Below are positions 5,788 through 49,461 of a stretch of DNA of 64,000 bases, one piece after another. Every line of letters starts with the position of its first letter. Position 1 is the first letter of the stretch. The position numbers were made by a program, and so were the translations under genes. Below the pieces are notes generated by a model. The model was not told where the DNA came from, ran no database searches, and saw only the letters and a list, made by a program, of their open reading frames with translations. Origin of the DNA: Bacteroidota bacterium (GTDB lineage: Bacteria > Bacteroidota > Ignavibacteria > UBA10030 > UBA6906); the NCBI GenBank assembly GCA_030835135.1, contig JAUQWO010000051.1, positions 1 through 64,000 on the forward strand. The letters run 5' to 3'.

Positions 5788-7188
5788 TCAGTCCCTGTCG
5801 CGTTGAAGCACAACCTTGTTCGTCTTGAGCGCTTTGCGCAGCCCCGGACCTGTGATGCCGGCCATCTGGGCTGCCTTCGCCACATTGAAGTTCGCCCGCC
5901 GCATGAGCTCCGAGAAGTAGCCACGCTTGAAGACCTCCTCGGCATTGCGGTAGGCCGGAAGCTCGTCGTACCGCTGGGCCAGACACTCCCGGCACCGGTC
6001 CCCCTCCCCCTCACGCTTCATCACCCCCAGCATCGGAAAGTCCACCGGCTGCAACTCGCCCGACTGCGAGTACGCCAGCGCACCCTTCACCGCATTCTCC
6101 AGCTCCCGCACGTTCCCCGGCCACCGGTGACTCTCCAGGGCACGGATCGCCTCGGGGGTCAGGGTGTACTGCCGCCCATCGGACTGCACGCCGAACTTCT
6201 GCAGGAAATACCCCGCCAGCGGAGCGATGTCCTCCCGCCGGTCCCGCAACGGAGGGATGTTCAGCTTCACGCCCGAGATGCGGTGATAGAAATCCTCACG
6301 CATCTTCCCCTTCGCCACCACGTCCTCGAGCTTCTCGTTGGTGGCCATGATCACCCGCACGTCCAGCCGCGTGTCCGGCCGCCGCGGGTCCTGCCCCACC
6401 CGCGCAATGCTCTTGTACTGCATGAACTGCAGCAGCTTGAGCTGCACGGTCTCGGTCAGACATGAGACCTCGGGGATGTACAACGTGCCGCCGTTCGCCG
6501 CCTCGAGCTTGCCGATCTTCGCCTTGTCCGCCCCCGAGAACGCCCCCTTCTCATGTCCGAAGAGCTCACTCTCGATGATGGATTCGCTCAGGACGCGCAT
6601 GGCCAGCGGGATGAAGGGCTTGTCCCTCCGCACGCTCCGCTGATGGATCTCGAACGCACACAGGTCCTTTCCCACGCCGGTCTCGCCATAAATGAGCACG
6701 TCGAACGTGAGCCCGGCGAGGCGCGTGAGTTCGTAGTGCACCTTCTTCATCCCTTCGCTGGCGAACACGAGACGGTCATGGAACTCCGCAAAACTGCTTT
6801 GCAGGGCGCGGACGCTGATCTCGAGCGTGCGGCGTTCGAGGGCCTTGGTGAGCTTGGCGGCAAGGATGTCGCGGTTGAAACTCTTGGAGACGAAGTCGTA
6901 CGCCCCGAGACGCATGAGCTCCACGGCGGTCTCGGTGTCGGCATGGTCGGTCACGATCACCACGGGCAGGAACGGGTCCACATCCCGATGCAGGGCCTGG
7001 AGCACTTCGCTGCCATCCTGATCCGGAAGACGGAGGTCCAGCAGCACGGCCGCGGGCCCTTCGAGGCGTGCCATCTCCAACCCCTTCTTCGCCGTCGTGG
7101 CGGTGCGGATGTGATAGCGGTCGCGGAGGAGCGACTCTACGTCGTTCAGGAACGCGACGCTATCGTCGATGATCAGTACTCGGTCCAT
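5788..7188 (-). CDS. NtrC-like response regulator with divergent AAA+ motifs
   Basis: 466 residues. The receiver domain (1-120) has an acidic pocket (IIDDS), phospho-acceptor D51 in LLDLRLPD, T80 and K102. The sigma-54 AAA+ domain (about 135-385) has Walker A YGETGVGKD (168-175) but GAFSGA instead of GAFTGA (215-220). In Walker B the usual FLDEIG is YIPEVS, so the metal-binding Asp is missing. A Fis-type HTH is at the C-terminus (NVAKAAQMAGITGPGLRKAL). The fold is clear, but ATPase and sigma-54 activity are doubtful. It follows the PAS kinase gene on the same strand, its likely partner, and precedes the beta-helix gene with its sigma-54-like promoter. Confidence 0.88.
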   Translation of the reverse strand: MDRVLIIDDSVAFLNDVESLLRDRYHIRTATTAKKGLEMARLEGPAAVLLDLRLPDQDGSEVLQALHRDVDPFLPVVIVTDHADTETAVELMRLGAYDFVSKSFNRDILAAKLTKALERRTLEISVRALQSSFAEFHDRLVFASEGMKKVHYELTRLAGLTFDVLIYGETGVGKDLCAFEIHQRSVRRDKPFIPLAMRVLSESIIESELFGHEKGAFSGADKAKIGKLEAANGGTLYIPEVSCLTETVQLKLLQFMQYKSIARVGQDPRRPDTRLDVRVIMATNEKLEDVVAKGKMREDFYHRISGVKLNIPPLRDRREDIAPLAGYFLQKFGVQSDGRQYTLTPEAIRALESHRWPGNVRELENAVKGALAYSQSGELQPVDFPMLGVMKREGEGDRCRECLAQRYDELPAYRNAEEVFKRGYFSELMRRANFNVAKAAQMAGITGPGLRKALKTNKVVLQRDRD

Positions 7189-16308: not shown

Positions 16309-17853
16309 ATGAACTCCCGTCACGACCGCCTGCTGGCGATAACCTCCGCACTCCTCGGTGCCTATGACCCGCAACGGCTCTTCAACGCCGTTGCCGGACA
16401 CCTGCGCGGGATCTTCCCCGTCGATGCCTTCGGCATCGCGTATTTCGACCACCGCACGGATACGTTCGCCCGCGGGATGGCCATGGCCGCGGACGGCGCG
16501 ATCCTCAGTCTCGAACCCATTCCCCGCACCGGCTCCGCACTCGAAGAGATCTGCGCCACCGGCACAGCGGTGTGCCTCGATGAATCGCGCGCACGCCAGG
16601 CCCTTGCACGGTTCGTGGGATTGCACACCCCCGCGCCCGGACAGCCGACGCAGATCGTCGTCCTCCCGCTCTTCGGCCGCGATCATGCATTGCTGGGCGT
16701 TGCCGCCGGACTCAACGGCGCGGGGTATACCTACACCTCAGACGACCTCGCATTCCTCGACCAGCTCGGCACGCAGGTCGGGCTCGCGATCGAGAACATG
16801 CAGCTCCATCAGGAAAATGCACGGCTCCGGATGCGGCTCGAGGCCGAGGGACAATACCTCAAGGACGAGATCGACCGCGCGGCGGATGTGGGCGGACTCA
16901 TCTACGCCAGCCGCTCGATGGACGAGGCGATGCAGCAGATCCAGCGCGCCGCGCCCACCGATGCATCGGTGCTGCTGGTGGGCGAGACCGGCACGGGAAA
17001 GGAACTGTTCGCGCGCACGCTCCACGCACGCAGCGCCTCCGCGCACCGGCCACTCGTGCGCGTCAATTGCGGGGCCATTCCCACCGGACTCATCGAGAGC
17101 ACGCTCTTCGGCCACGAGAAGGGCGCGTTCACCGGCGCTGTGCACCGTCACATCGGACTGTTCGAAGTGGCCGATGGCGGGACGCTTTTCCTCGATGAGA
17201 TCGGCGAGCTGCCGCTCGACATGCAGGTGAAGCTCCTCCGCGTGCTGCAGGAAGGCGAGTTCACGCGCGTGGGCGGACATGAACCGCTGCACGTGAGCGT
17301 GCGCATCGTTGCGGCAACCAACAGACCGATTGAAGCGATGGTGACGTCGGGAACCTTCCGCGCCGACCTGTACTACCGCCTCGCCGTCGTCCCGATCACC
17401 ATCCCGCCGCTGCGTGCGCGGCGCGAAGACATCCCGCTGCTCGCCACCGCGTTCGTGCAGAAGTATTCACGCCGCTTCCATAAGCCCGTCCGCCAGATCG
17501 CACCCGGAGCGCTGCACCGGCTCGAGGGCTATGCGTTCCCCGGCAACGTGCGCGAACTCGAGAACCTCATCGAACGGGCGGTGGTGTTGTGCGACGATAC
17601 CACGCTGCGCGCGGAACACTTTCCGCTCCCCTCCGTGAAGCATCCGCATCATGCGGCGGAGACAGGCCCCGCATCCGGCGGTCAGCCGGACGATGAGCGT
17701 GCACGCATCCTCACGGCACTCCGCCAGGCCAACTGGATCATCGAGGGCACCCGCGGAGCTGCTCACCGGCTCGGGATCAAGCCCAGCACGTTGCGCGGAC
17801 GCATGAACCGCCTGGGCATCGATCGCAATAGCGACACGCCCCCTACCTGCTGA
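16309..17853 (+). CDS. GAF-domain sigma-54-dependent transcriptional activator
   Basis: 514 residues with NorR/FhlA-type layout: an N-terminal GAF sensor (about 1-165), a coiled linker (NMQLHQENARLRMRLEAEGQ), an intact AAA+ domain (Walker [36 protein letters not shown]-finger region RADLYYRL) and a C-terminal Fis-like HTH (GAAHRLGIKPSTLRGRMNRLGI). It should sense a small molecule through GAF and open sigma-54 promoters. It stands alone upstream of the sulfur island. The long C-terminal linker before the HTH is His/Gly-rich. It could be the activator for the sigma-54-type sites elsewhere in the window, but that is inference. Confidence 0.9.
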   Translation: MNSRHDRLLAITSALLGAYDPQRLFNAVAGHLRGIFPVDAFGIAYFDHRTDTFARGMAMAADGAILSLEPIPRTGSALEEICATGTAVCLDESRARQALARFVGLHTPAPGQPTQIVVLPLFGRDHALLGVAAGLNGAGYTYTSDDLAFLDQLGTQVGLAIENMQLHQENARLRMRLEAEGQYLKDEIDRAADVGGLIYASRSMDEAMQQIQRAAPTDASVLLVGETGTGKELFARTLHARSASAHRPLVRVNCGAIPTGLIESTLFGHEKGAFTGAVHRHIGLFEVADGGTLFLDEIGELPLDMQVKLLRVLQEGEFTRVGGHEPLHVSVRIVAATNRPIEAMVTSGTFRADLYYRLAVVPITIPPLRARREDIPLLATAFVQKYSRRFHKPVRQIAPGALHRLEGYAFPGNVRELENLIERAVVLCDDTTLRAEHFPLPSVKHPHHAAETGPASGGQPDDERARILTALRQANWIIEGTRGAAHRLGIKPSTLRGRMNRLGIDRNSDTPPTC

Positions 17854-18058: not shown

Positions 18059-18223
18059 CCGGCCTTCCTATTTTTCTCACAATTGGGAATACGAAACCCT
18101 GGTTTCCGCCTCATTGGCAGATATTTCACCAACATACCGGCTGGCACAATATCTGTTAATCATCGATAGAGATTTGGTTTTCCCGTCCGCATCCTCTCAT
18201 ACAAGATCAGGACTGATACCAGA

Positions 18224-18652
18224 ATGGAAACCCTTTACAGTATCGGGGAAGCAGCAGACATCCTGGGGGTATCGGTACCAACGCTTCGCCTCTACGAGCG
18301 CGAAGGTCTCATCATTCCCATCCGGAAAAAGTCACGGCACCGGCTGTACGCACCCGCCGATCTGGAACGCATCCGCTGTCTCCGCAAGAGCATCAACGAT
18401 GACAAGGTGGGTATCGCCGGCATGCGGCGCCTGCTCGCCCTGATCCCCTGCTGGAAGATCCACGACTGCAAGGCACCCGACCGCGAGAAGTGTCTGGCCT
18501 TCAACGACGATCAGACGCCCTGCTGGAAAGTGTCGCCCCGGCCGGTGCCCTGCGGCGATGCGGACTGCAGGAACTGTGAAGTATACAATCACGTCACCGA
18601 CTGCACCGCGTTGAAGCGTACGATCGCACAGTACACCATCGACAAGGGGTGA
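18224..18652 (+). CDS. MerR-family regulator with Cys-rich C-terminal domain
   Basis: 142 residues. N-terminal MerR winged helix (YSIGEAADILGVSVPTLRLY, EREGLI, RHRLYAPADLERI). The C-terminal half holds eight Cys (76, 82, 90, 100, 110, 115, 118, 127; CWKIHDC, PCWKV, PCGDADCRNC), a pattern suited to an Fe-S cluster or zinc. It starts 9 bases upstream of an RBS-led psrA-like gene (gap of 4 bases), so it likely controls the reductase operon in response to redox, sulfur or metal. The 160 bases upstream are AT-rich; I could not fix a MerR operator. Confidence 0.85.
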   Translation: METLYSIGEAADILGVSVPTLRLYEREGLIIPIRKKSRHRLYAPADLERIRCLRKSINDDKVGIAGMRRLLALIPCWKIHDCKAPDREKCLAFNDDQTPCWKVSPRPVPCGDADCRNCEVYNHVTDCTALKRTIAQYTIDKG

Positions 18653-27514: not shown

Positions 27515-28888
27515 ATGGCCATGACACACCGCTTTTCGATACTCCTTGTGGACGATGAGCCCGGACAACGCACCGTGCTCGCCGGATTCCTCAGGAAACG
27601 ATCGCACACCGTGCGGGAGGCGGGGAGTGTTGGAGAAGCGCTTGCGCTTGTCGGACAGGACGTGCCCGACATCGTCCTGACGGACCAGCGGATGGCCGAC
27701 CGCACCGGACTGGATCTGCTGCGCGAGGTCCGGAAGATCGATCCGGACACGACGGTCATCATCATGACCGCCTTCGGCACCATCGAACAGGCCGTGCAGG
27801 CGATGCAGGATGGGGCGTACAGCTACCTGACAAAACCGATCGATCTCGGCGAACTCGATCTGATGATGCAGCGCATCGGCGAACGCGAGCAACTCATCTC
27901 GGAGAACCGGCTGCTGCGGGAGCAGCTCGTGAACCGGTATGCGTTCACCGGCATCATCGCCGGCTCGGCGTCGATGGAGACCGTGCTGAACACCGCCGGG
28001 CGCGTGGCACAGAGCCGGGCCTCGGTACTGGTGCGCGGCGAGAGCGGCACGGGCAAGGAACTGATCGCACGCGCGATCCACTTCAACAGTCCGCGCGCGG
28101 CGAAGCCGTTCATCGCCGTCAACTGTGCCGCGCTCAACGAGCATCTGCTCGAGAGCGAACTCTTCGGACACGAGAAGGGCGCATTCACCGGTGCCGACCG
28201 TCAGCGGCGCGGCAGATTCGAAGCGGCCGACGGCGGGACCCTGTTCCTCGATGAAGTGGGCGACATTCCGCTCTCGATGCAGGTGAAGCTGCTGCGCGTC
28301 CTGCAGGAGCGGTCGTTCGAGCGCGTTGGCGGCACGTCACCCATCGAAGTGGACGTGCGCGTCATCGCCGCCACGAACCGCGATCTGGAGTCGATGATCA
28401 AAGCCGGCACCTTCCGTGAGGACCTGCTGTACCGGTTGAACGTCGTCACGCTGGATATACCGCCATTGCGCGAGCGGCGGGAGGACATCGCACCGCTCGC
28501 CCAGCATTTCACCGTGCGCTTTGCGAACGAGAACGGGCGCAACGCCATGACGTGGTCGCGGGAGGCGTGGGAGATCATGCAGCGCCATGGGTATCCGGGC
28601 AACGTACGCGAGCTGGAGAACATCATCCAGCGCGCCGTGATCCTGGCACGCGGCGATGTGATCACCTCGGAGGACCTGCCGCCGGTGGTGTTGAACCTGC
28701 CGCCGGAGCAGGCCATGGCGGCCACGCGGGAGATCGCGGACCTTCCCGGACAGGTGGACCGGCTGGAGAAGGAGCTCGTGCTGGAGGCGCTGCGCGTGCA
28801 CCATGGGAATCAATCGCGCGCTGCAGCCCAACTGGGACTCTCGGAGCGCAACCTGCGCTATCGTCTCAAGAAGTGGGGGATCAAGTAG
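27515..28888 (+). CDS. NtrC-family sigma-54 response regulator
   Basis: 457 residues; start at 27515 is tentative, a second ATG lies two codons on. Receiver domain with LLVDDE, phospho-acceptor Asp in IVLTDQRM (about residue 57), MTAFGT and LTKPI. AAA+ domain intact: [45 protein letters not shown]. Fis-like HTH at the end ([25 protein letters not shown]). Fully competent sigma-54 activator placed between OsmC and the rhodaneses, 17 bases after osmC. No kinase gene is adjacent; the orphan kinase at 47723-49393 is one candidate partner. Confidence 0.92.
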
Positions 28889-40289: not shown

Positions 40290-41456
40290 TTATCGTCTCT
40301 TCTTCGCCAGGAACTCTTTCCCTGGTCTTCTCTTCAACCCGAAGAAGTATTTGATCGCTGCCACCGTCCGTTCCGATGCCTTGCCATCGCCATACGGATT
40401 CACCGCCGTCGCCATTTTCCGGTAGGCCGCGGCATTGCCCAGGAGCTTACGCGCACCGGTCCAGATCTTCTCCGGGTCCGTCCCCACCAGCTTCACGGTA
40501 CCATACTTCACCGCCTCAGGCCGTTCGGTCACCTCGCGCAGCACCAGCACCGGCTTGCCCAGCGCCGGCCCTTCTTCCTGTACCCCGCCCGAATCCGTGA
40601 TGAGCAGATGCGACCGCGCCATGATGTGCACGAAGTCCATATAGTCCAGCGGCTCCATGAGCATCACATTCGTCACGCCATCGAGCACCGGCATCACGGC
40701 CTCGCGCACGATGGGATTCTTATGGATCGGGAACACCACGAGCGCGTCGGGCGAGGCTTCCGCGATGCGGCGCAGGGCGAGGGCGGCACCGCGCATCGGT
40801 TCGCCCCAGTTCTCGCGACGGTGCATGGTGACGAGGATGAGCTTCCGCTTGTCCGCGGCCGCGCGCTGCAGTGCGGGCGTCGAGAACGTGTGCTTCTGGT
40901 TCACCGCGATATGCAGTGCATCGATCACGGAGTTGCCGGTCACATGGATCGTTCCCGGGTCGACGCGTTCGCGCAACAGTGCCCGCTTCGCCGTGTCGGT
41001 CGGCGCAAAGTGGAGATCACCGATCACGGTCGTCAACCGCCGGTTGATCTCTTCCGGGAACGGCTGGGTCTTGTCGTTCGTCCGCAGTCCGGCCTCGACG
41101 TGCCCGACGGGGATGTGCCGGAAGAATGCCGCGAGACTTCCCACGAAGGTGGTCAGCGTGTCGCCCTGCACCAGCACCATGTCCGGCTCTTCCTGCACGA
41201 GCACGGTATCGAGCGCCTCGATGGCGTTGTGCGTGATCGTTGCCAGGCTCTGCTTCGGCTGCATGATATTGAGGTCATGGTCGGCCGTGATGTGGAAAAC
41301 ATCCAGCACCTGATCCAGCATCTGCCGGTGCTGGGCAGTGGCGATGGTGACCACCCGGCACCACTCCTGCTCCTGTTGGAGTTTCAGGATGATGGGTGCC
41401 ATCTTGATGGTATCGGGACGGGTCCCGAAGATCACGGCAACGGTCTTCTTCTTCAT
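40290..41456 (-). CDS. wecB: UDP-N-acetylglucosamine 2-epimerase (non-hydrolysing)
   Basis: 388 residues. WecB signatures: IFGTRPDTIKMAPII, VQGDTLTTFVGSLAAFF, HVEAGLRT, PFPEEINRR, VTMHRRENWGEP, LLITDSGGVQEEGPALGKPVLVLREVTERPE. It interconverts UDP-GlcNAc and UDP-ManNAc in the cytosol to feed a polysaccharide or lipid-linked glycan. The start overlaps the end of the DUF4405 gene (ATGA), an unusual partner. It probably supplies the exopolysaccharide locus downstream on the same strand. Confidence 0.93.
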   Translation of the reverse strand: MKKKTVAVIFGTRPDTIKMAPIILKLQQEQEWCRVVTIATAQHRQMLDQVLDVFHITADHDLNIMQPKQSLATITHNAIEALDTVLVQEEPDMVLVQGDTLTTFVGSLAAFFRHIPVGHVEAGLRTNDKTQPFPEEINRRLTTVIGDLHFAPTDTAKRALLRERVDPGTIHVTGNSVIDALHIAVNQKHTFSTPALQRAAADKRKLILVTMHRRENWGEPMRGAALALRRIAEASPDALVVFPIHKNPIVREAVMPVLDGVTNVMLMEPLDYMDFVHIMARSHLLITDSGGVQEEGPALGKPVLVLREVTERPEAVKYGTVKLVGTDPEKIWTGARKLLGNAAAYRKMATAVNPYGDGKASERTVAAIKYFFGLKRRPGKEFLAKKRR

Positions 41457-42307
41457 TCTTCCCTGTGTGCTGGTTGTCCTTGAATGATGGCGGCAACGTC
41501 GGCCGGCGAAATCCCGGTCCCCTGTGCGATCGTGCGGATGCTCGATCCCTGGTCTGCGCTGAGCCCGGCCGCGGCGAGTCGCGCGAGACCTTCGTCAACG
41601 GTGATCCCTGCCTCTTCGCACAGCGATGCAACACTCTTGCGGCCGTAGCCTGGCCCGCTCCCAGCGGACAGTGCCGGCGGCGGAGCGATGCCGGCGCGGT
41701 CATAGACCTGCTTCGGGGTCATCGCATGCTGTGCGGCGAGATCCTTGATCGTCACCCCCGCGCTCTCCGGCGCGATGCCGGCGGCAGCGAGGCGGTGCAT
41801 GAGTTCGTCCACGGGGAGCTTCATCTCGCCTGCCAGACGGGCGACGCTCAGCAGTTCGGCGTGCGGGACCGGCGGTTCGGTGGCGGGGGTGGACCAGCTG
41901 TTCCTGATCTCCTCTCCCCAGGCCATCACGGTGCCGAAAGGTACCGTGCCATCGGCGGCCATCACGAACACGATGATCCCGACCGTGAGCGACAATGCCA
42001 GCTCGCGCCGCTTGTTGATCCCTTCATTGATCCGCCGGGCGATGTATCCGAGAATGACCCGCCAGTTGAAGAAGAGATGGAAGGACGCCGCAACGACGAA
42101 GATGAACGAGAAGATGGTGTGGACGGACTGCCACTGTGATTTGGAGAATCCGAGCAGGCGCCAATCGGACCAGTTCGCGATGCGTCCGGGCGGCGTGATG
42201 AACAGGACGATGCCGGTGACCGCAATGACGAGGAACGAGAGCACGACGTAGAACGTGACGAAGGCTCTCCAGGTGAAGGGCTTTGCAGCCGATTGTGCAG
42301 TGGTCAT
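41453..42307 (-). CDS. DUF4405-type three-helix membrane protein with C-terminal helical modules
   Basis: 284 residues from ATG at 42307 (the frame opens further upstream, but this start lies 39 bases below a sigma-54-type site). Three membrane helices: FVTFYVVLSFLVIAVTGIVL, SVHTIFSFIFVVAASFHLFF and LALSLTVGIIVFVMA. The second has His spaced 14 apart (VHTIFSFIFVVAASFH), suited to b-haem, as proposed for DUF4405 proteins. Residues about 155-284 hold repeated helical modules (TIKDLAAQHAMTPKQVYDRA; TIRTIAQGTGISPADVAAII). It may carry electrons from quinol to the cytochromes encoded upstream. Confidence 0.75.
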   Translation of the reverse strand: MTTAQSAAKPFTWRAFVTFYVVLSFLVIAVTGIVLFITPPGRIANWSDWRLLGFSKSQWQSVHTIFSFIFVVAASFHLFFNWRVILGYIARRINEGINKRRELALSLTVGIIVFVMAADGTVPFGTVMAWGEEIRNSWSTPATEPPVPHAELLSVARLAGEMKLPVDELMHRLAAAGIAPESAGVTIKDLAAQHAMTPKQVYDRAGIAPPPALSAGSGPGYGRKSVASLCEEAGITVDEGLARLAAAGLSADQGSSIRTIAQGTGISPADVAAIIQGQPAHREE

Positions 42308-42345: not shown

Positions 42346-42361
42346 TGCACGTACCGTGCCA
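42346..42361 (-). promoter_or_regulatory. Candidate sigma-54 promoter of the DUF4405-wecB operon
   Basis: Minus-strand TGGCACGGTACGTGCA, GG-N10-GC, 11 of 12 positions of TGGCACG-N4-TTGCA. The -12 element lies about 39 bases before the ATG at 42307, giving a leader of about 27 nt, a normal arrangement. Confidence 0.68.
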
Positions 42362-42429: not shown

Positions 42430-42447
42430 TTCGACGAATTTGTCGGA
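42430..42447. promoter_or_regulatory. Candidate activator-binding dyad upstream of the sigma-54 site
   Basis: TTCGACGAATTTGTCGGA, a near-symmetric TTCGAC-N6-GTCGGA, 69 bases upstream of the sigma-54-type promoter at 42346-42361. The same motif recurs at 45456-45473. Confidence 0.5.
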
Positions 42448-42712: not shown

Positions 42713-43936
42713 CTAGAACGCGCTCACGAACCCCACCGACAGCTTCGTGGTCTTCGCGATCGTGTCGTGCGTGACTTCACCGACGACGCGGAAGTTGCGC
42801 GCCAGCATGTAGCCCACGTGGCCCGTGATGGTCTCGTAGTCGAGCGAGTTCTGCTCGGAATCCACCCAATTGTACAACGCCGCACAATACCACTTCCCGG
42901 CGTCGCCACCCGGGGTGATCACGAGTTCGCCGAAGGCACCGTTGGTCTTTACCTTCGCCGGACCCGTCCCTGCGATCCAGGAGGGCGAGTAGAACGATGG
43001 ATTCTCGTCGCTCCGCGTCACGTACTGTGCATTCAGCTGCACGTTGCCGAGTTCGAGCGTCACATCGGGCCCGGCCATCCACATGTCGTTCGTGGTGACC
43101 ATGCGCCACTGATGCGGCAGATCCAGATTCTCTCCCTGCTCGCGCCCGAAGTACGCGAACCCGCCCACGCGAACATGCTCGCCAAGGTCCTGCGACAGCC
43201 GGAACATGGTGTTCTTGTACTTATCGGTGTCGAAGCTGCGCGACGCATCTGCCGCGCCGATCCCGGAACCATTCAGGACTTCCACGATGATGTCCGTACC
43301 CGTCGGGAAGCCATACGTCATCATCACCCCGCGGTCGTACGTGAGATTGGCCGACGACAGTCCGGGCCTCACGCGGTACACCTGATAGTCCTCCAGCGTC
43401 AGCCGCAGCTCGCGTTTGAAGAGCGGGTCCGACACCTGGAACTGCCCGAGATAGATATCCAGTTCGCTGTTGAAGACGTTATTGAACATCACGAACGCAT
43501 CTTCAAGTCCGGCCACCTCTCCCCGCTCGCCAAAGAAGAAATAGAAATAGTATGACACGTCTTTCGCGATCTGTCCGCCGGAGAGCAGTTTCACCAGGTA
43601 CGGCCACTGCATATCGGCCTTCCCGGCGTTGCCGGACTTCCAGCTGCCGTAGCCTTCCAGCCGGAGCGCCAGCGGGATCTCGCGGAGCAACATCAGCTCT
43701 TCATCGCCGGTCTCGCGGTAGGCCCGCGGCGCTTCCTTGTCCGCAAGCACGAACCCGTTGCCGGCGAATTCATCGCCATACGGTTTCAGCCGTGGTGCCG
43801 GACGGTGGCAGGTATTGCAGGACATATCATATTTCCGCGCGAACGCCGGGATAGCCAGCGCTTCGGCGGCGACAACGACCAACAGGAGCAGCGTGCAGAA
43901 CGAGAACAGGAATATGCGGTTCATGGCGGAACTCAT
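42713..43936 (-). CDS. Outer-membrane beta-barrel with N-terminal c-type haem site
   Basis: 407 residues. Signal sequence LFSFCTLLLLVVVAAEALA, then a single CxxCH (C40-N-T-C43-H44) in KYDMSCNTCHRPAPRLKPYGDEFAGNGF, followed by an all-beta region ending in a Phe-terminated strand (LSVGFVSAF). So a haem is tethered to an outer-membrane porin-like barrel. Start at 43936 overlaps the stop of the multihaem cytochrome gene (ATGA); MNRIF, four codons on, is an alternative. The pair fits a porin-cytochrome electron conduit. Confidence 0.82.
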   Translation of the reverse strand: MSSAMNRIFLFSFCTLLLLVVVAAEALAIPAFARKYDMSCNTCHRPAPRLKPYGDEFAGNGFVLADKEAPRAYRETGDEELMLLREIPLALRLEGYGSWKSGNAGKADMQWPYLVKLLSGGQIAKDVSYYFYFFFGERGEVAGLEDAFVMFNNVFNSELDIYLGQFQVSDPLFKRELRLTLEDYQVYRVRPGLSSANLTYDRGVMMTYGFPTGTDIIVEVLNGSGIGAADASRSFDTDKYKNTMFRLSQDLGEHVRVGGFAYFGREQGENLDLPHQWRMVTTNDMWMAGPDVTLELGNVQLNAQYVTRSDENPSFYSPSWIAGTGPAKVKTNGAFGELVITPGGDAGKWYCAALYNWVDSEQNSLDYETITGHVGYMLARNFRVVGEVTHDTIAKTTKLSVGFVSAF

Positions 43937-45282
43937 GGCAGGATAGTGACTGATGTTGAATGGGTATTGACCTCGATGATCTCAGCTTCTTCCATCGGCA
44001 CGCCGAGGAACTCCGTGACCGGCGTGGGGAGCTTCTGGAAATTCAGCGTCGCTTTCACGGTCAACGGCCCGGGCGCGCACGTGCCCGGCACGGACCACGT
44101 GAATGTCTCCAGCTTCGTCTCCCGCGGTCCGATGCGGTAATCCACCGCCTGCGACGCGGTGTTCCACTGCATGATCGTCATGCGCCCCTGCGGGTCCAGG
44201 TACGGCAGACGGAAGATCCGGTCGCCCACCGGCACCCCGTCACGCTGGATCCCCTTGAAGTCGGGGATGTTCAACGGGATGCCCATGTCCTGGTACGCAA
44301 GCGTGTTCGCGGCGATCGTATACTCTTCGCCGGTGAAGCCCTTCTTGTCCACGGGCAGGTGATAGACCGTCCCCTTCGCATCCCTCGCCTCCACATGCAG
44401 CCACACCATCCGCTCCTCGGCAGAACCGGTGGGGAACTTGTGGCCGGTCTTCTGGTTGAACAGCGCAACAGTGAAGCGCACCTTGTCGCCCGGTTCCACC
44501 TCGCGGCCATCGGGATGGATCCGCACCTCGATGGTGCCGCGCACCTTGCCGGGATCGTGGGCACCGTGGAAAAGGTGCTGCATGGCATCGGGCACCTTCG
44601 GCTTCAGGGACACGATCTGGCCCTCGGCTTTCGTCATATGGCAGTCATGGCACCGCACACCTTCTTTCGCGTAGGGTCCATCGCGCCACTCGAGATGGGT
44701 GGATTTCACCCAGACACCATACGGACTCTTCTCGTTGTGGCAGGTACCGCAGAAGTCGGGATTCGAAATGAAATCGAGTTTTCGCGTCTCGTGCACCGGC
44801 GACACCACGCCATCGCGGCGGCCGTACTTGATCTTGCCCGGTTCGCTGATGTAGTTGAAATTGAACGGCGTGTCGCCCGCAAAGCCGGTGATGGTATGAC
44901 AGACGTCGCACGATACCGATTCGTTCGCGCGGCTGTTGGCCTCCGGCTTCGGCGGCGGCACATCACCGGCCATGAACGAGAGCGGCGCATGACATCCGTT
45001 GCATCCGGCCTTCACGCCCGCCACCTTCGGATCCTTCTCCGCGTGGGGCACGGCCAGCTTGAAGTACTCGATCTCATCCCAGTGATGCGTGTAGGCCTGC
45101 GACATCATCGCCTGCTGCCACTGCTGATAGAAGTCCTTGTGGCAGGCCGTGCCACATGCCTTCGGCTTCTCGAACGCATCGTACGGGTGCGTCCCCAGGG
45201 CGTCGTCGCCTGCCTTTTTCTGCTGGCCGGTGAGCACCGCGGTCAACATCAGCGTGAGAAGGAGAACGGACAGGGTTTTCAT
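43933..45282 (-). CDS. Exported five-haem cytochrome c (c554-like)
   Basis: 449 residues with signal peptide MKTLSVLLLTLMLTAVLTG. Haem motifs: CGTACH (C43-x3-C47-H48, an uncommon CX3CH), CNGCH, CDVCH, CGTCH and CHDCH, five in all. About 200 C-terminal residues form a beta-rich domain (KVRFTVALFNQKTGHKFPTG). The N-terminal half resembles the cytochrome c554 / multihaem nitrogen- or sulfur-cycle family. It sits first in an operon with the barrel-cytochrome, downstream of a sigma-54-type promoter, and may shuttle electrons across the periplasm. Confidence 0.88.
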   Translation of the reverse strand: MKTLSVLLLTLMLTAVLTGQQKKAGDDALGTHPYDAFEKPKACGTACHKDFYQQWQQAMMSQAYTHHWDEIEYFKLAVPHAEKDPKVAGVKAGCNGCHAPLSFMAGDVPPPKPEANSRANESVSCDVCHTITGFAGDTPFNFNYISEPGKIKYGRRDGVVSPVHETRKLDFISNPDFCGTCHNEKSPYGVWVKSTHLEWRDGPYAKEGVRCHDCHMTKAEGQIVSLKPKVPDAMQHLFHGAHDPGKVRGTIEVRIHPDGREVEPGDKVRFTVALFNQKTGHKFPTGSAEERMVWLHVEARDAKGTVYHLPVDKKGFTGEEYTIAANTLAYQDMGIPLNIPDFKGIQRDGVPVGDRIFRLPYLDPQGRMTIMQWNTASQAVDYRIGPRETKLETFTWSVPGTCAPGPLTVKATLNFQKLPTPVTEFLGVPMEEAEIIEVNTHSTSVTILP

Positions 45283-45341
45283 CGTGCGGTCCCTCGCGAT
45301 AGTCGAACTGGATCAGGGTGTACAGCGGATGCAGAAACGTT

Positions 45342-45357
45342 TTCAAACGCAGTGCCA
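45342..45357 (-). promoter_or_regulatory. Candidate sigma-54 promoter of the cytochrome operon
   Basis: Minus-strand TGGCACTGCGTTTGAA; TGGCAC in the -24 box and TTGAA in place of TTGCA at -12. About 60 bases upstream of the cytochrome start, a natural position. Confidence 0.52.
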
Positions 45358-45455
45358 GAGAAGAGGTGCGAATTGCTCATGATTCCGCGGGATTTTTCGC
45401 TCGCGCACGCGATAGTTCGCAAAGATGGGAATGGTCGTCACTCCTGACGAGGTTC

Positions 45456-45473
45456 TTCGACATTTGTGTCGAG
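45456..45473. promoter_or_regulatory. Central activator-binding dyad shared by two divergent promoters
   Basis: TTCGACATTTGTGTCGAG, TTCGAC-N6-GTCGAG. Centre near 45464, almost midway between the two sigma-54-type sites (99 and 108 bases away). Same motif as 42430-42447. Confidence 0.52.
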
Positions 45474-45580
45474 AAAGGACGCCCCAACGCCCCGGTTTGC
45501 ATGGCGCACGAGCTCCTCTCACAGGCGGTATCGGGTCCAACTGGTTGCGTGATTTGATGTTACAGCCGTGGCAGAAAAAG

Positions 45581-45596
45581 TGGCACGGACATTGAA
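45581..45596 (+). promoter_or_regulatory. Candidate sigma-54 promoter of the small Ca-loop protein operon
   Basis: TGGCACGGACATTGAA; the -24 box is perfect (TGGCACG) and the -12 box reads TTGAA for TTGCA, the same deviation as in the facing promoter. 76 bases upstream of the ATG at 45672. Confidence 0.55.
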
Positions 45597-45671
45597 TGAG
45601 ATGGGGCAAGCTCATGAGCATTCTCACAAACAACAAATTCCAGAACAGGGTACCAGAGAAGGAGTAACGGC

Positions 45672-46025
45672 ATGAAACGCATCACGGCATTGTTCCTCAC
45701 GCTCGCGCTGGTGGTGTTCCTCGGCGCACTGCACACCGATGCAGCGGCACAGACACTCGGCAAGAGCAGCAAGACCACCATGGGCCAGCACGGTCCGATC
45801 GATTCCGATGGCGATGGGATCCCCAACGGGCAGGACCCGGACTACACGAAGCCGGCGAACGGCACGGGCAGCAAGTTCGGGAAGATGAACGGCACGCAGA
45901 GCGGGCTCGGCAAGGGTATGGGCAAGGGCCAGGGTCTTCGTGATGGCAGCTGCGGCACGGGCACCGGAACAGGCACGGGCGTCTGCGACGGTACGGGTCC
46001 CAAAGGCCGCGGCAAGGGCCGGTAA
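45672..46025 (+). CDS. Small secreted Gly/Lys-rich protein with one Ca-binding loop
   Basis: 117 residues. Signal peptide MKRITALFLTLALVVFLGAL then HTDAAAQ. One thrombospondin-3/dockerin-like Ca loop, DSDGDGIPNGQDPDY (about 44-58), then a Gly/Lys/Thr-rich tail with two Cys in CGTGTGTGTGVCDGTG. No enzyme fold. It begins a plus-strand operon with a similar protein and an outer-membrane barrel, under a sigma-54-type promoter facing that of the cytochromes. The tail may bind anions or polysaccharide, or form an extracellular matrix. Confidence 0.78.
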   Translation: MKRITALFLTLALVVFLGALHTDAAAQTLGKSSKTTMGQHGPIDSDGDGIPNGQDPDYTKPANGTGSKFGKMNGTQSGLGKGMGKGQGLRDGSCGTGTGTGTGVCDGTGPKGRGKGR

Positions 46026-46032
46026 GTTCATG

Positions 46033-46077
46033 GTGACGCAGGTCGGCACCGGGATCCCCGATGCCGCCCTGCGTCAC
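46033..46077 (+). terminator. Hairpin between the two small secreted protein genes
   Basis: GTGACGCAGG (46033-46042) pairs perfectly with CCTGCGTCAC (46068-46077), with an inner CGGCA/TGCCG stem. Followed by only a mild T content, so it may attenuate rather than end transcription, giving more of the first product. Confidence 0.6.
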
Positions 46078-46118
46078 TTCGTTGTCTTGTGCCGGGAAGT
46101 TTGGGAAGGAAGAGAGCC

Positions 46119-46481
46119 ATGACCTCAAGAACGATGTCTCTGATAGCCGTGCTGGCAGTACTGCCGGCCGTCGCCTTCAGCCAGTCGCGCGACACCACAG
46201 CGGCAGCACGCAGTGCGGAGCAGCAGCGCGACCGCGTGCGGGCCGGACAGGGAGGTTTCCGCGACGAGAACGGCAACGGCATCGACGACAGGATCGAGCG
46301 TCAGGGCAAAGGACAGGGCGCGCGCAAGGACCGTTTCGTGGATGCCGATGGCGACGGGATCTGTGACGGCCGCGCGGGCGGACTCGGATTCAAGCGCGGA
46401 GCGATGAACGGCGGGCAGGGCGCGGGTGCGGGCAAAGGCAATGGGACGGGGAACCGATTCGGACAGGGAGGAAAGAAGTGA
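46119..46481 (+). CDS. Small secreted Gly/Lys/Arg-rich protein with two Ca-binding loops
   Basis: 120 residues from ATG at 46119 (GGAAGGAAGAGAG upstream). Signal peptide MTSRTMSLIAVLAVLPAVAFS. Two EF/dockerin-like loops, DENGNGIDDRIE (about 49-60) and DADGDGICDGR (about 74-84), then a Gly-rich basic tail ending FGQGGKK. A relative of the previous small protein. Its stop overlaps the GTG start of the barrel gene. Confidence 0.78.
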   Translation: MTSRTMSLIAVLAVLPAVAFSQSRDTTAAARSAEQQRDRVRAGQGGFRDENGNGIDDRIERQGKGQGARKDRFVDADGDGICDGRAGGLGFKRGAMNGGQGAGAGKGNGTGNRFGQGGKK

Positions 46482-47614
46482 AACAGACCACAGGTGCAGT
46501 TGCCTTCATTCTCTTCGCCGGTGTTTTTCTTGCCTCGAACCCCGCAGCCGCCCAGTTCTCCGTGGAGGCAGAGGTCGGCACCATGGTGGACGACAACGTG
46601 AACAACAACAGTCTGCGTCTCTCGGACCGGATCGTCTCCGCTGGCCTGCAGGCGGGATACGATTGGGTCACGGACCGCACGAACACGACGCTGCAGTACA
46701 ATGGCGGGTACAACTATTTCACGCTGGTGCCGGGGCGGAGCAACCAGGTACACGGCGGTGGAGTGTCCTTCGCGCAGCTCTTCGGCAATGATGAAGAAAC
46801 ATTGTGGAATGCCGCGGCAAGCTACAGCGTGCGCACCGACAGGGAGGAATTCACCTTCTACGACAACACCGCGTTCATGGCGTCGAGCACGCTCAAGCAC
46901 CAGTTCTCCGCGATGTTCATCGGCCGCGCCGGCTACACGCTGAGGCTCATGCGCTTCCCGAACCTCGCATCATTCGACCATGCAGAACATCAGCTCTTCA
47001 TCCAGGGCTCCACATTCCTCCCTTCGCATACCACCATCATCGGTCAGATCGATCTCGGCATGAAGCTGTACAGCACGCCGAACGAGGATACGACGGCGGC
47101 CGCGGCGGGACGGGGCCGGCGCTCGAGCGCGCTCTCCAGCCCCGGCGTCACCCAGCTGACCGGGAGCGTCCGCATCGGACAATCGCTCTTCGAACAGACG
47201 GGCCTCAGCGTTGCCGGCGGCTATCAGTTGAACCTCCGGAAGGACACGCGCTATCTCGGCTCCACCAGCGGCCTGATCGCCGATGACGAGATCTTCGACG
47301 ACCACTATGGCTATGAGGGTCCGCAGGCATCGCTCATGCTCACCCAGATCCTGCCGTGGGACATCAAGGCGCGCCTCTCGGGCACGTGGCAGCGGCGGAC
47401 GTACTCCACGCAGCCGGCGTTCGATGATGCAGGCACGCAGCTGGCAGCGCACCGGCTCGATACCCGGAGCGCGGTCAACCTCACCGTGACCGTGCCGGTA
47501 CCTGCACTCCGGTGCACGATCGGCCTGGCCTACGACCGGATCTGGAATGCATCGAACGATCCGTTCTATGCCTACACCAACAACGCGTTCACGGTCCAGC
47601 TCTCGTTCCCCTGA
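46478..47614 (+). CDS. Outer-membrane beta-barrel protein, paralogue of the polysaccharide-locus barrel
   Basis: 378 residues, GTG start overlapping the previous stop. Signal peptide MKQTTGAVAFILFAGVFLAS then NPAAAQ. Alternating beta-strands throughout, ending in Pro after VQLSF. Shared blocks with the 33317-34606 product include YGYEGPQASLMLTQILPW, PAFDDAGTQLAAHRLD and the final IWNASNDPFYAYTNN. Perhaps a secretion pore for the two small Ca-loop proteins or a passive porin; the substrate is unknown. Confidence 0.78.
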   Translation: MKQTTGAVAFILFAGVFLASNPAAAQFSVEAEVGTMVDDNVNNNSLRLSDRIVSAGLQAGYDWVTDRTNTTLQYNGGYNYFTLVPGRSNQVHGGGVSFAQLFGNDEETLWNAAASYSVRTDREEFTFYDNTAFMASSTLKHQFSAMFIGRAGYTLRLMRFPNLASFDHAEHQLFIQGSTFLPSHTTIIGQIDLGMKLYSTPNEDTTAAAAGRGRRSSALSSPGVTQLTGSVRIGQSLFEQTGLSVAGGYQLNLRKDTRYLGSTSGLIADDEIFDDHYGYEGPQASLMLTQILPWDIKARLSGTWQRRTYSTQPAFDDAGTQLAAHRLDTRSAVNLTVTVPVPALRCTIGLAYDRIWNASNDPFYAYTNNAFTVQLSFP

Positions 47615-47684
47615 TCGGTACGGAACCCTGCGACCGGCCCGGTCACCTGCATCCGGCACGGCCGCCCGCATCGGGGGCGGTGCC

Positions 47685-47715
47685 CTGCAAGTGCCCGGGA
47701 ATTTCGCTACATTGG
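47685..47715 (+). promoter_or_regulatory. Weak promoter-like site upstream of the sensor kinase
   Basis: CTG-N20-TACATTGG, the same spacing as the TTG-N20-TA sites near 52150-53230, with one mismatch in the -33 box. ATG follows at 47723. Confidence 0.4.
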
Positions 47716-47722
47716 CACCACG

Positions 47723-49393
47723 ATGCCCATCCCCTTCGCCGTCAACATCCGTCCGCGGGTCCTGATCGCCGTCACGGCAACGGTCGGGGCCCTTCTGCTC
47801 TTCTCGGCATTCTGGGAACTCGACCGGAGCAGGAAGGAACTCTCGCATGTGGTCCATGAAGAGGCCCTCGGGCTCGTCGAAGTGGTACACCAGAGTGCCG
47901 TCAATACGATCCTCGCCACCGAGCAGAACGAATCCCTGCTCACCGAGAGGCTGCTGAACAATGCCTGGTTCATCGCGGAGCTTGACCGCACCGGGTCGCT
48001 GTCGGAACAACGCCTCGCGGCGATCGCGGAGGCCAACCACATCTTCCGCATCAACATCTTCGACCACGCCGGGTACAAGGTACTGTCCAACCACCGCTCC
48101 GAGGAGGGCCACGGCCCCGTCGCCGGACGTCACCGGCCCGGGGAAGCGATCGCGCCCATCCTCCGGGGCGATACCACGGTGCTCGTCATCGGTCTGAAGG
48201 ACGCCCGGATGGAGGAGGGTCAGCGGTACGCCGTGGCTGTCCGGCGTCATCGCCCGGCAGGCGGTGCCATCGTCCTCAATCTGGATGCGGCGGAGTTGCT
48301 TGAGTTCCGCAAACGCATCGGCATTGGCAAGCTGATCCGGGACCTCGGGGACAACAGCGGCATCGTGTTCGCTGCGTTACAGGACCCGCAGGGCATCATC
48401 GCTGCGAGTGGCGAGGTGAAAGAGCTCTCGTCCTTTGAAGCCGATCCGGACCTCGGCCATGCGATGGCATCCGATACGACGCTCACGCGTGAGGCCCCGT
48501 TCGGCGAGACAACGGTCTTCGAGGTGATCCATCCCCTGGTGATCGAGGGTTCAACACTGGGTGTGCTGCGCCTGGGCCTGTCCATGGACGAGGTCCGCGC
48601 CGCGGAACAACGCATGCAGCGCCGGATGGTGATCGTCATGTTCGTCCTCCTCCTGCTCGCGGCACTGGCCACGCTGGCGATCATCGCAAACCGGAACTAT
48701 CAGCGGGTGCAGGCCGAGCTCCAGCGTTCCGAGAAGCTGCTCGCGCTCGGCGAGCTCGCATCGGGCGTGGCCCACGAGATCAGGAATCCGCTGAACGCGA
48801 TCGCGATGATCGCGCAGCGGTTCGCGCACGAATTCACGCCGGCACAGGACGTGGAGGAGTACCGTTCGCTGACCGGCGTGCTCCGCACTGAAGCAGAGCG
48901 GGTCAACGGGATCATCGTCAACTTCCTCCGGTATGCCCGTCCTCCGCGGCTCAACCCGGTGCCGGTGGCGCCCGGCGCACTGGTTACGCACTGTGCGGCG
49001 GTGATCCAGCCGCAGATGAAGGCGCGGAATGTCGGGTTCACGCTCACCGCCCATGGCGACGGCACCGTTCTCCTTGACCGCGATCAGATGACGCAGGCAT
49101 TATTGAACCTGTTGCGCAACGCGCTGGAAGCGACACCGGAGGGAGGGAAGGTGACGCTGGCATCCTGGGTGGACCACAACGGAGCGGTGATCACGGTGAC
49201 CGATACCGGGGTGGGGATCACGCCGGAGGCGATGGAGCGGGTCTTCAACCTCTATTATACGACGAAGCCGGACGGGACGGGGATGGGGCTCCCCATGGCG
49301 CGGCAGATCATCGTGCAGCACGGGGGGAAGCTGGAGATCGAGAGCGAACCCGGGGGAGGAACGACCTGTCGGGTGAAGATACCCGCACACTAG
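47723..49393 (+). CDS. Membrane sensor histidine kinase (NtrB/ZraS-like)
   Basis: 556 residues. Membrane helix 1 near residues 12-30 (VLIAVTATVGALLLFSAFW), a periplasmic sensing domain to about 290, helix 2 (MVIVMFVLLLLAALATLAII), then a HisKA/HATPase core: GVAHEIRNPLNAI with H351, N-box NLLRNALEA, DTGVGI and GTGMGLPMA. This is the NtrB/ZraS-type partner of NtrC regulators. No regulator gene is adjacent; the NtrC protein at 27515-28888 is a candidate. It follows the barrel operon by 108 bases and may sense the same envelope signal. Confidence 0.9.
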   Translation: MPIPFAVNIRPRVLIAVTATVGALLLFSAFWELDRSRKELSHVVHEEALGLVEVVHQSAVNTILATEQNESLLTERLLNNAWFIAELDRTGSLSEQRLAAIAEANHIFRINIFDHAGYKVLSNHRSEEGHGPVAGRHRPGEAIAPILRGDTTVLVIGLKDARMEEGQRYAVAVRRHRPAGGAIVLNLDAAELLEFRKRIGIGKLIRDLGDNSGIVFAALQDPQGIIAASGEVKELSSFEADPDLGHAMASDTTLTREAPFGETTVFEVIHPLVIEGSTLGVLRLGLSMDEVRAAEQRMQRRMVIVMFVLLLLAALATLAIIANRNYQRVQAELQRSEKLLALGELASGVAHEIRNPLNAIAMIAQRFAHEFTPAQDVEEYRSLTGVLRTEAERVNGIIVNFLRYARPPRLNPVPVAPGALVTHCAAVIQPQMKARNVGFTLTAHGDGTVLLDRDQMTQALLNLLRNALEATPEGGKVTLASWVDHNGAVITVTDTGVGITPEAMERVFNLYYTTKPDGTGMGLPMARQIIVQHGGKLEIESEPGGGTTCRVKIPAH

Positions 49394-49400
49394 CGGGAGC

Positions 49401-49433
49401 GGGAAGAAGGACCACCGTGCTCTCCTTCTTCCC
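49401..49433. terminator. Bidirectional hairpin between convergent genes
   Basis: GGGAAGAAGGA (49401-49411) pairs perfectly with TCCTTCTTCCC (49423-49433), between the kinase (plus) and SPFH (minus) gene ends. Confidence 0.78.
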
Positions 49434-49461
49434 TCTCCGGCTGCGACACTTCCCTGCCGGG

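Follow-up and report, generated by a model that had tools for sequence, protein, structure and literature searches.

In the established case of ZraR, the divergent sigma-54 promoters of zraP and zraSR are served by a shared enhancer (PMC4987338). In Desulfovibrio vulgaris the enhancer-binding protein DVU2106 fires both orp operons from palindromic sites lying between divergent sigma-54 promoters (PMC3897727). One enhancer serving two divergent sigma-54 promoters is a known arrangement, and by analogy the locus analysed below would work like the ZraR and orp cases. It belongs to a window of 64,000 nucleotides (the whole stretch of DNA that was analysed) from a Bacteroidota bacterium of the class Ignavibacteria, in which a 390-bp spacer parts the minus-strand genes of a pentahaem cytochrome and a haem-porin from a plus-strand Ca-loop/barrel/kinase operon (45672–49393). 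We are confident, judging from the sequence features described here, that this spacer represents a bidirectional sigma-54 control region, where one two-component regulator would activate both operons.

Two outward sites and a tandem operator in the spacer

Both putative sigma-54-type promoters of the form TGGCAC-N5-TTGAA reported by the first-pass annotation were found in the sequence. One of them, TGGCACTGCGTTTGAA (45342–45357, minus strand), precedes the cytochrome operon with a predicted 5' leader of ~48 nt and has counterparts of the same orientation and on the same side in two related loci (L153 and L175). The other, TGGCACGGACATTGAA (45581–45596, plus strand), precedes the Ca-loop/barrel/kinase operon with a predicted leader of ~65 nt, and its counterpart is present upstream of the first gene, ca1, in most relatives. 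In both sites the GG-N10 spacing fits the sigma-54 criteria, while the −12 doublet is GA, not GC. The genome encodes RpoN (Sigma54_DBD, E 4e-55, G000:C45).

The dyad TTCGAC-N6-GTCGAG, previously suggested as the common target of one activator, does occupy positions 45456–45473, and its perfect core TCGACA-N4-TGTCGA (TCGACA-TTTG-TGTCGA, 45457–45472) is conserved in relatives. It was placed almost midway between the two promoters, and the distance from its centre (45464.5) to their midpoint (45469.0) is indeed only 4.5 bp. The dyad is thus real, but the picture of a single operator was incomplete: an inspection of the spacer at helically spaced positions around the dyad brought to light another perfect palindrome, TCGTCA-CTCC-TGACGA (TCGTCACTCCTGACGA, 45435–45450), which matches the tandem pattern with 0 mismatches. 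The starts of the two palindromes are 22 bp, i.e. two helix turns, apart, and the centre of the pair is at 45453.5, which is 104 bp from the centre of the cytochrome-side site and 135 bp from that of the opposite one.

A genome-wide scan for the dyad in combination with sigma-54 sites had been proposed as a check. The lone dyad failed in such a scan: with no more than one mismatch it has 33 other copies in the genome, none of them with a sigma-54-like site within 250 bp and none with a partner at 22 bp. The single dyad by itself is background, and counting it in the genome as a signal was dropped for this reason. The tandem pair is unique in the genome and linked to sigma-54 sites in relatives. 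It occurs once in 4.9 Mb where the pattern search at up to 3 mismatches expects 0.006, although this uniqueness is partly post hoc, since the pattern permits A or T at one position owing to the copy in the window; no second tandem pair was detected in this genome at up to 3 mismatches. Palindromic sites, helical phase and conservation upstream of sigma-54 promoters together would qualify the pair as an upstream enhancer of an NtrC-class activator.

Pairs and promoters in related genomes

Comparative loci were picked solely as encoding relatives of the kinase, the regulator or the cytochrome, without reference to the motif. Among the dyad–dyad distances below 120 bp registered in them, 22 of 24 were exactly 22 bp. 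The pair was present in 30 of 100 related genomes, 28 of those holding the kinase or the regulator. It was found in 28 of the 34 genomes bearing kinase or regulator versus 2 of the 66 others (1e-16), and its association with the cytochrome in the same 100 genomes was weaker (8e-6), these p-values, like those given below, overstating independence because the loci are related by descent. Extra matches in G020 and G029 (L207, L212) look like chance, as they have 3 mismatches and neither kinase, regulator nor sigma-54 site. A reversed control pattern gave no matches, and in 395 genomes sampled across the phylum all matches with at most 2 mismatches fell into the order except for one, a 2-mismatch match from the same class. 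Six genomes bear the kinase or the regulator but have no recognised pair (G043, G047, G086, G088, G094 and G098); in G047 and G094 the contigs are very short, and in G086 the partner of one good dyad is degraded. The cytochrome was rejected as the gene defining the regulon, since 7 of the 23 genomes with a strong orthologue have no pair and 14 of the 30 pair-bearing genomes have no cytochrome. Based on this distribution one can state that the pair and its outward sites follow the kinase and regulator rather than the cytochrome.

Coupling of the pairs to sigma-54-like sites (score of at least 9 of 11) was estimated for 31 distinct pairs with a background taken from the same loci. At distances of 60–150 bp from the pairs 39 sites pointed outward and 1 inward, while 0.64 of each were expected. 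Since sigma-54 sequences were not used in defining the pair, this orientation test does not depend on the pattern, even though common descent connects the loci. Outward sites flanked 29 of the 31 pairs on at least one side and 10 of them on both, so that the two-sided architecture suggested for the window is common in the order. The pair-to-site distances cluster at 77–78, 85–88, 99–100, 104–108, 120 and 135–148 bp and are helically phased (Rayleigh ~3e-7 at a 10.5-bp period); the 104 and 135 bp of the window are less common than 85–88. The same divergent layout was observed in G000, G002 and G090, where the distance between the pair and the outward cytochrome-side site is 104, 209 and 148 bp, respectively.

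The TTGAA variant of the −12 element, noticed earlier as a deviation shared by the two promoters, is present in both but is not special to them. The base following TTG in the 39 pair-associated promoters is A in 19 cases, T in 12, C in 7 and G in 1, so that 31 of them have A or T in place of C. Another 8 TGGCAC-N5-TTGAA sites were found in the genome, 6 of them intergenic and 5 with a gene start 29–102 bp downstream, and sites with TTGCA, TTGCT or TTGTA resemble them in placement. The usual A or T and the intergenic TTGAA sites rule out that TTGAA is peculiar to the two window promoters and suggest that it is an accepted −12 element here, which does not mark the two operons. A search that insists on GC at −12 would overlook most of the predicted promoters of the regulon.

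Target genes, sensor and regulator

The pentahaem c-type cytochrome (43933–45282, minus strand; Pfam NapC/NirT and cytochrome c554) has one CX3CH and four CX2CH motifs, and its orthologues are mostly 59–80% identical. In those compared at the first haem motif (L057, L059, L061, L068, L075, L080 and L086) it is CX3CH in most, whereas L068 and L086 are among those with CX2CH; such a difference in spacing is unusual for a conserved haem. The end of this gene is overlapped by the start of the next one (42713–43936, minus strand), which encodes a Cyc2-like fused monohaem cytochrome-porin recognised by the signature AIPAFARKY...CNTCH...PRL and porin fold matches. The predicted structure is a 16-strand barrel (pLDDT 73, with the haem domain poorly modelled). 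In line with the Cyc2 criteria the protein has AxPxFAR[QK][TY] before CxxCH and PxL after it, is longer than 365 aa and contains a porin domain; the AxPxFAR[QK][TY] part of the signature was reported to be unique to Cyc2 (PMC8406198).

On the other side of the spacer ca1 (45672–46025, plus strand) encodes a secreted protein with the Ca-binding-type loop DSDGDGIPNGQDPD and Gly-Thr repeats, and its orthologues stand upstream of ca2, barrel and kinase. It is followed on the same strand by ca2 for the second secreted Ca-loop protein (46119–46481; ORF with orthologues), by a predicted outer-membrane beta-barrel of ~16 strands (46478–47614) and by the kinase gene. In relatives the pair precedes the same ca1-ca2-barrel(-kinase) operon, and its other side or a second site is occupied by DUF2202 genes (L169, L181, L183, L185, L197), by a TonB-receptor-like gene (L194–L196) or by DUF4405 (L177). 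The recurrent DUF2202 partners are L181:2896-3489, L183:2319-2912, L185:7707-8297, L197:774-1367 and L169:13689-14315. The regulon may help to place DUF2202, a family of unknown role; our literature search found no paper on DUF2202, nor on sigma54 together with Ignavibacterium.

A third sigma-54-type site, TGGCACGGTACGTGCA (42346–42361, minus strand), is located 38 bp before the start codon of a DUF4405 membrane cytochrome gene identified by domain match (41453–42307, minus strand). The centre of a single degenerate dyad, CCGACA-AATT-CGTCGA in the minus-strand reading (42431–42446), lies 85 bp upstream of it, and the chance of such a neighbour for a given site is ~0.007. In G097 (L177) the tandem pair is immediately adjacent to DUF4405, and G026 and G040 have DUF4405 inside the ca operon. 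Judging from these arrangements the gene is probably the third target. Proteins with DUF4405 have been demonstrated to be membrane cytochromes carrying haem b (PMC11334425). One can assume that this inner-membrane cytochrome, the periplasmic pentahaem cytochrome and the outer-membrane haem-porin would form a trans-envelope electron route.

Some arrangements of the cytochrome deviate from that in the window. In G001, a member of the same genus, the SPFH gene and the cytochrome are direct neighbours, with the whole Ca-loop/barrel/kinase operon missing and no sigma-54 site (L057:2030-2100, versus 45283–49461 in the window), and kinase, regulator and pair are on another contig. The cytochrome can, therefore, leave (or join) the regulon by local rearrangement. 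In G012 and G017, two genomes of the same family, it has a sigma-54 site (L190:8191-8206, L191:8056-8071) in the absence of kinase, regulator and pair, so that it would depend on a different activator there. Elsewhere in the window a weak sigma-54-like site, TGGCACAATATCTGTT (18142–18157), stands just before a gene starting near 18224, which by eye reads as a MerR-type regulator.

The sensor histidine kinase (47723–49393, plus strand; sCache, HisKA and HATPase domain matches) is the final gene of the target operon. Its nearest named families are ZraS and AtoS, both under cut-off. Most of its orthologues (L152, L156, L169 and L175 among the loci compared) have ~110 extra residues between the sensor and kinase halves, perhaps a PAS domain, which are absent in the window genome, G002 and G086. 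The proposed activator, an NtrC-type response regulator (27515–28888, plus strand), has the architecture of NtrC-class enhancer-binding proteins with a receiver, a sigma-54-interacting AAA+ domain and a Fis-type HTH. In the window genome, which contains ~20 enhancer-binding proteins, its gene is ~19 kb from that of the kinase. Its orthologues are 57–75% identical and keep a 13-residue HTH stretch which was found in no other activator of the genome. Among 100 genomes 28 have both kinase and regulator, 4 the kinase only, 2 the regulator only and 66 neither (Fisher 3e-18); of the 27 other genomes that have both, 22 carry the two on one contig, and L152, L156, L175 and L177 are examples of loci where kinase and regulator lie together with the ca genes and the pair. 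Very probably, as these sequence comparisons suggest, the activator of the pair is this regulator. The sites, their phasing, orientation and conservation, their co-occurrence with kinase and regulator and the presence of RpoN are all read directly from the genomes.

Proposed mechanism, alternatives and known systems

From these data we infer binding, phosphotransfer, looping, promoter use and a sensed signal in the following form. The kinase 47723–49393 would phosphorylate the regulator 27515–28888, whose dimers would occupy the two 16-bp palindromes TCGWCA-N4-TGWCGA, 22 bp apart on one helix face, and come together on them as an ATPase. Looping would then allow this complex to open RpoN-RNA polymerase at the outward sites, 104 bp on one side and 135 bp on the other. 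The 104-bp side would drive the pentahaem cytochrome and the Cyc2-like cytochrome-porin, the 135-bp side the Ca-loop proteins, the barrel and the kinase itself. As the kinase closes an operon that is itself a target, positive feedback is predicted. The DUF4405 membrane cytochrome, preceded by a weaker copy of the operator, is probably a third target.

An alternative is autoregulation, in which pair and plus-strand promoter would be dedicated to the Ca-loop/kinase operon alone, with the cytochrome site coincidental or belonging to another activator. In most relatives the pair adjoins ca1 with no cytochrome next door; G003, G012, G017, G022 and G031 have the cytochrome without kinase or regulator, in two of them (G012, G017) it has retained a sigma-54 site but no pair, and in L156 the pair lies between cytochrome and ca1 with no strong cytochrome-side site. 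We nevertheless consider such one-sided control unlikely, because all three genomes with the divergent layout have the outward cytochrome-side site, two-sided use is common in other genomes, where DUF2202, TonB-receptor or DUF4405 genes take the second side, and the downstream DUF4405 gene of the window has a dyad and a sigma-54 site of its own.

Binding of the pair by another of the ~20 enhancer-binding proteins, for instance 16309–17853 or 5788–7188, seems still less probable. The number of activators in the genome and the separation of the proposed regulator from the kinase here leave room for it, but across genomes the pair tracks the 27515 regulator family, in most relatives the regulator is beside the kinase and the pair, and none of the other activators of the genome has its recognition helix. 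A chance resemblance in GC-rich DNA, which would make dyad and GG...GA sites mere background and which the abundance of near-identical single dyads might suggest, is hardly credible: it is contradicted by the exact spacing of 22 bp, by the outward orientation and helical phasing of the sites and by conservation across families. One enhancer-binding protein for both operons, as it was initially proposed, is the best-supported reading, with the pair and outward sigma-54 sites conserved across several families of the order.

Regulator, operator and regulon appear to be undescribed so far; no description of them was found in the literature searched, which is no proof of absence. It is possible, and we suggest it tentatively with slightly less than even confidence, that they constitute an undescribed order-wide sigma-54 two-component regulon with an operator of two 22-bp-phased TCGACA-N4-TGTCGA palindromes and TTG[A/T]A in place of TTGCA at −12, controlling in this organism a full trans-envelope electron route (DUF4405 membrane cytochrome, pentahaem cytochrome and Cyc2-like cytochrome-porin), Ca-loop surface proteins and its own sensor. 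The findings connect an as yet uncharacterised two-component system with a defined operator and a defined set of targets in a whole order known mostly from metagenome assemblies, predict when the Cyc2-like cytochrome-porin and the pentahaem cytochrome are made, and offer a simple sequence rule for locating further targets.

Among known systems the likeness to ZraSR/zraP of E. coli and Salmonella includes an NtrC-type two-component system, divergent sigma-54 promoters and one promoter driving an operon with the sensor kinase, the other promoter of ZraSR driving a periplasmic protein; ZraS is also the best-named relative of the window kinase. Identity with ZraSR is ruled out, since both proteins are far under the model cut-offs (226 bits versus 479 for ZraS and 423 versus 760 for ZraR). 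The targets also differ, being haem proteins, Ca-loop proteins and barrels, with no zraP-like gene recognised among those examined, and the regulator gene stands apart from the operon. With AtoSC and the NtrC class the regulator shares receiver, AAA+ and Fis-type HTH, and AtoC is its top NCBIfam match, but 530 bits are under the AtoC cut-off of 714 and, in contrast to AtoSC, no acetoacetate genes were seen among the targets. The cytochrome-porin resembles Cyc2 in signature, length above 365 aa and 16-strand barrel, as predicted from sequence and model; unlike Cyc2 its gene stands behind that of a pentahaem cytochrome. The orp system (PMC3897727) shares with the window palindromic sites between two divergent sigma-54 promoters; DVU2106 is described as its cognate activator, the passages considered mention no kinase, and the orp system requires IHF and differs from the window in targets and operator sequence.
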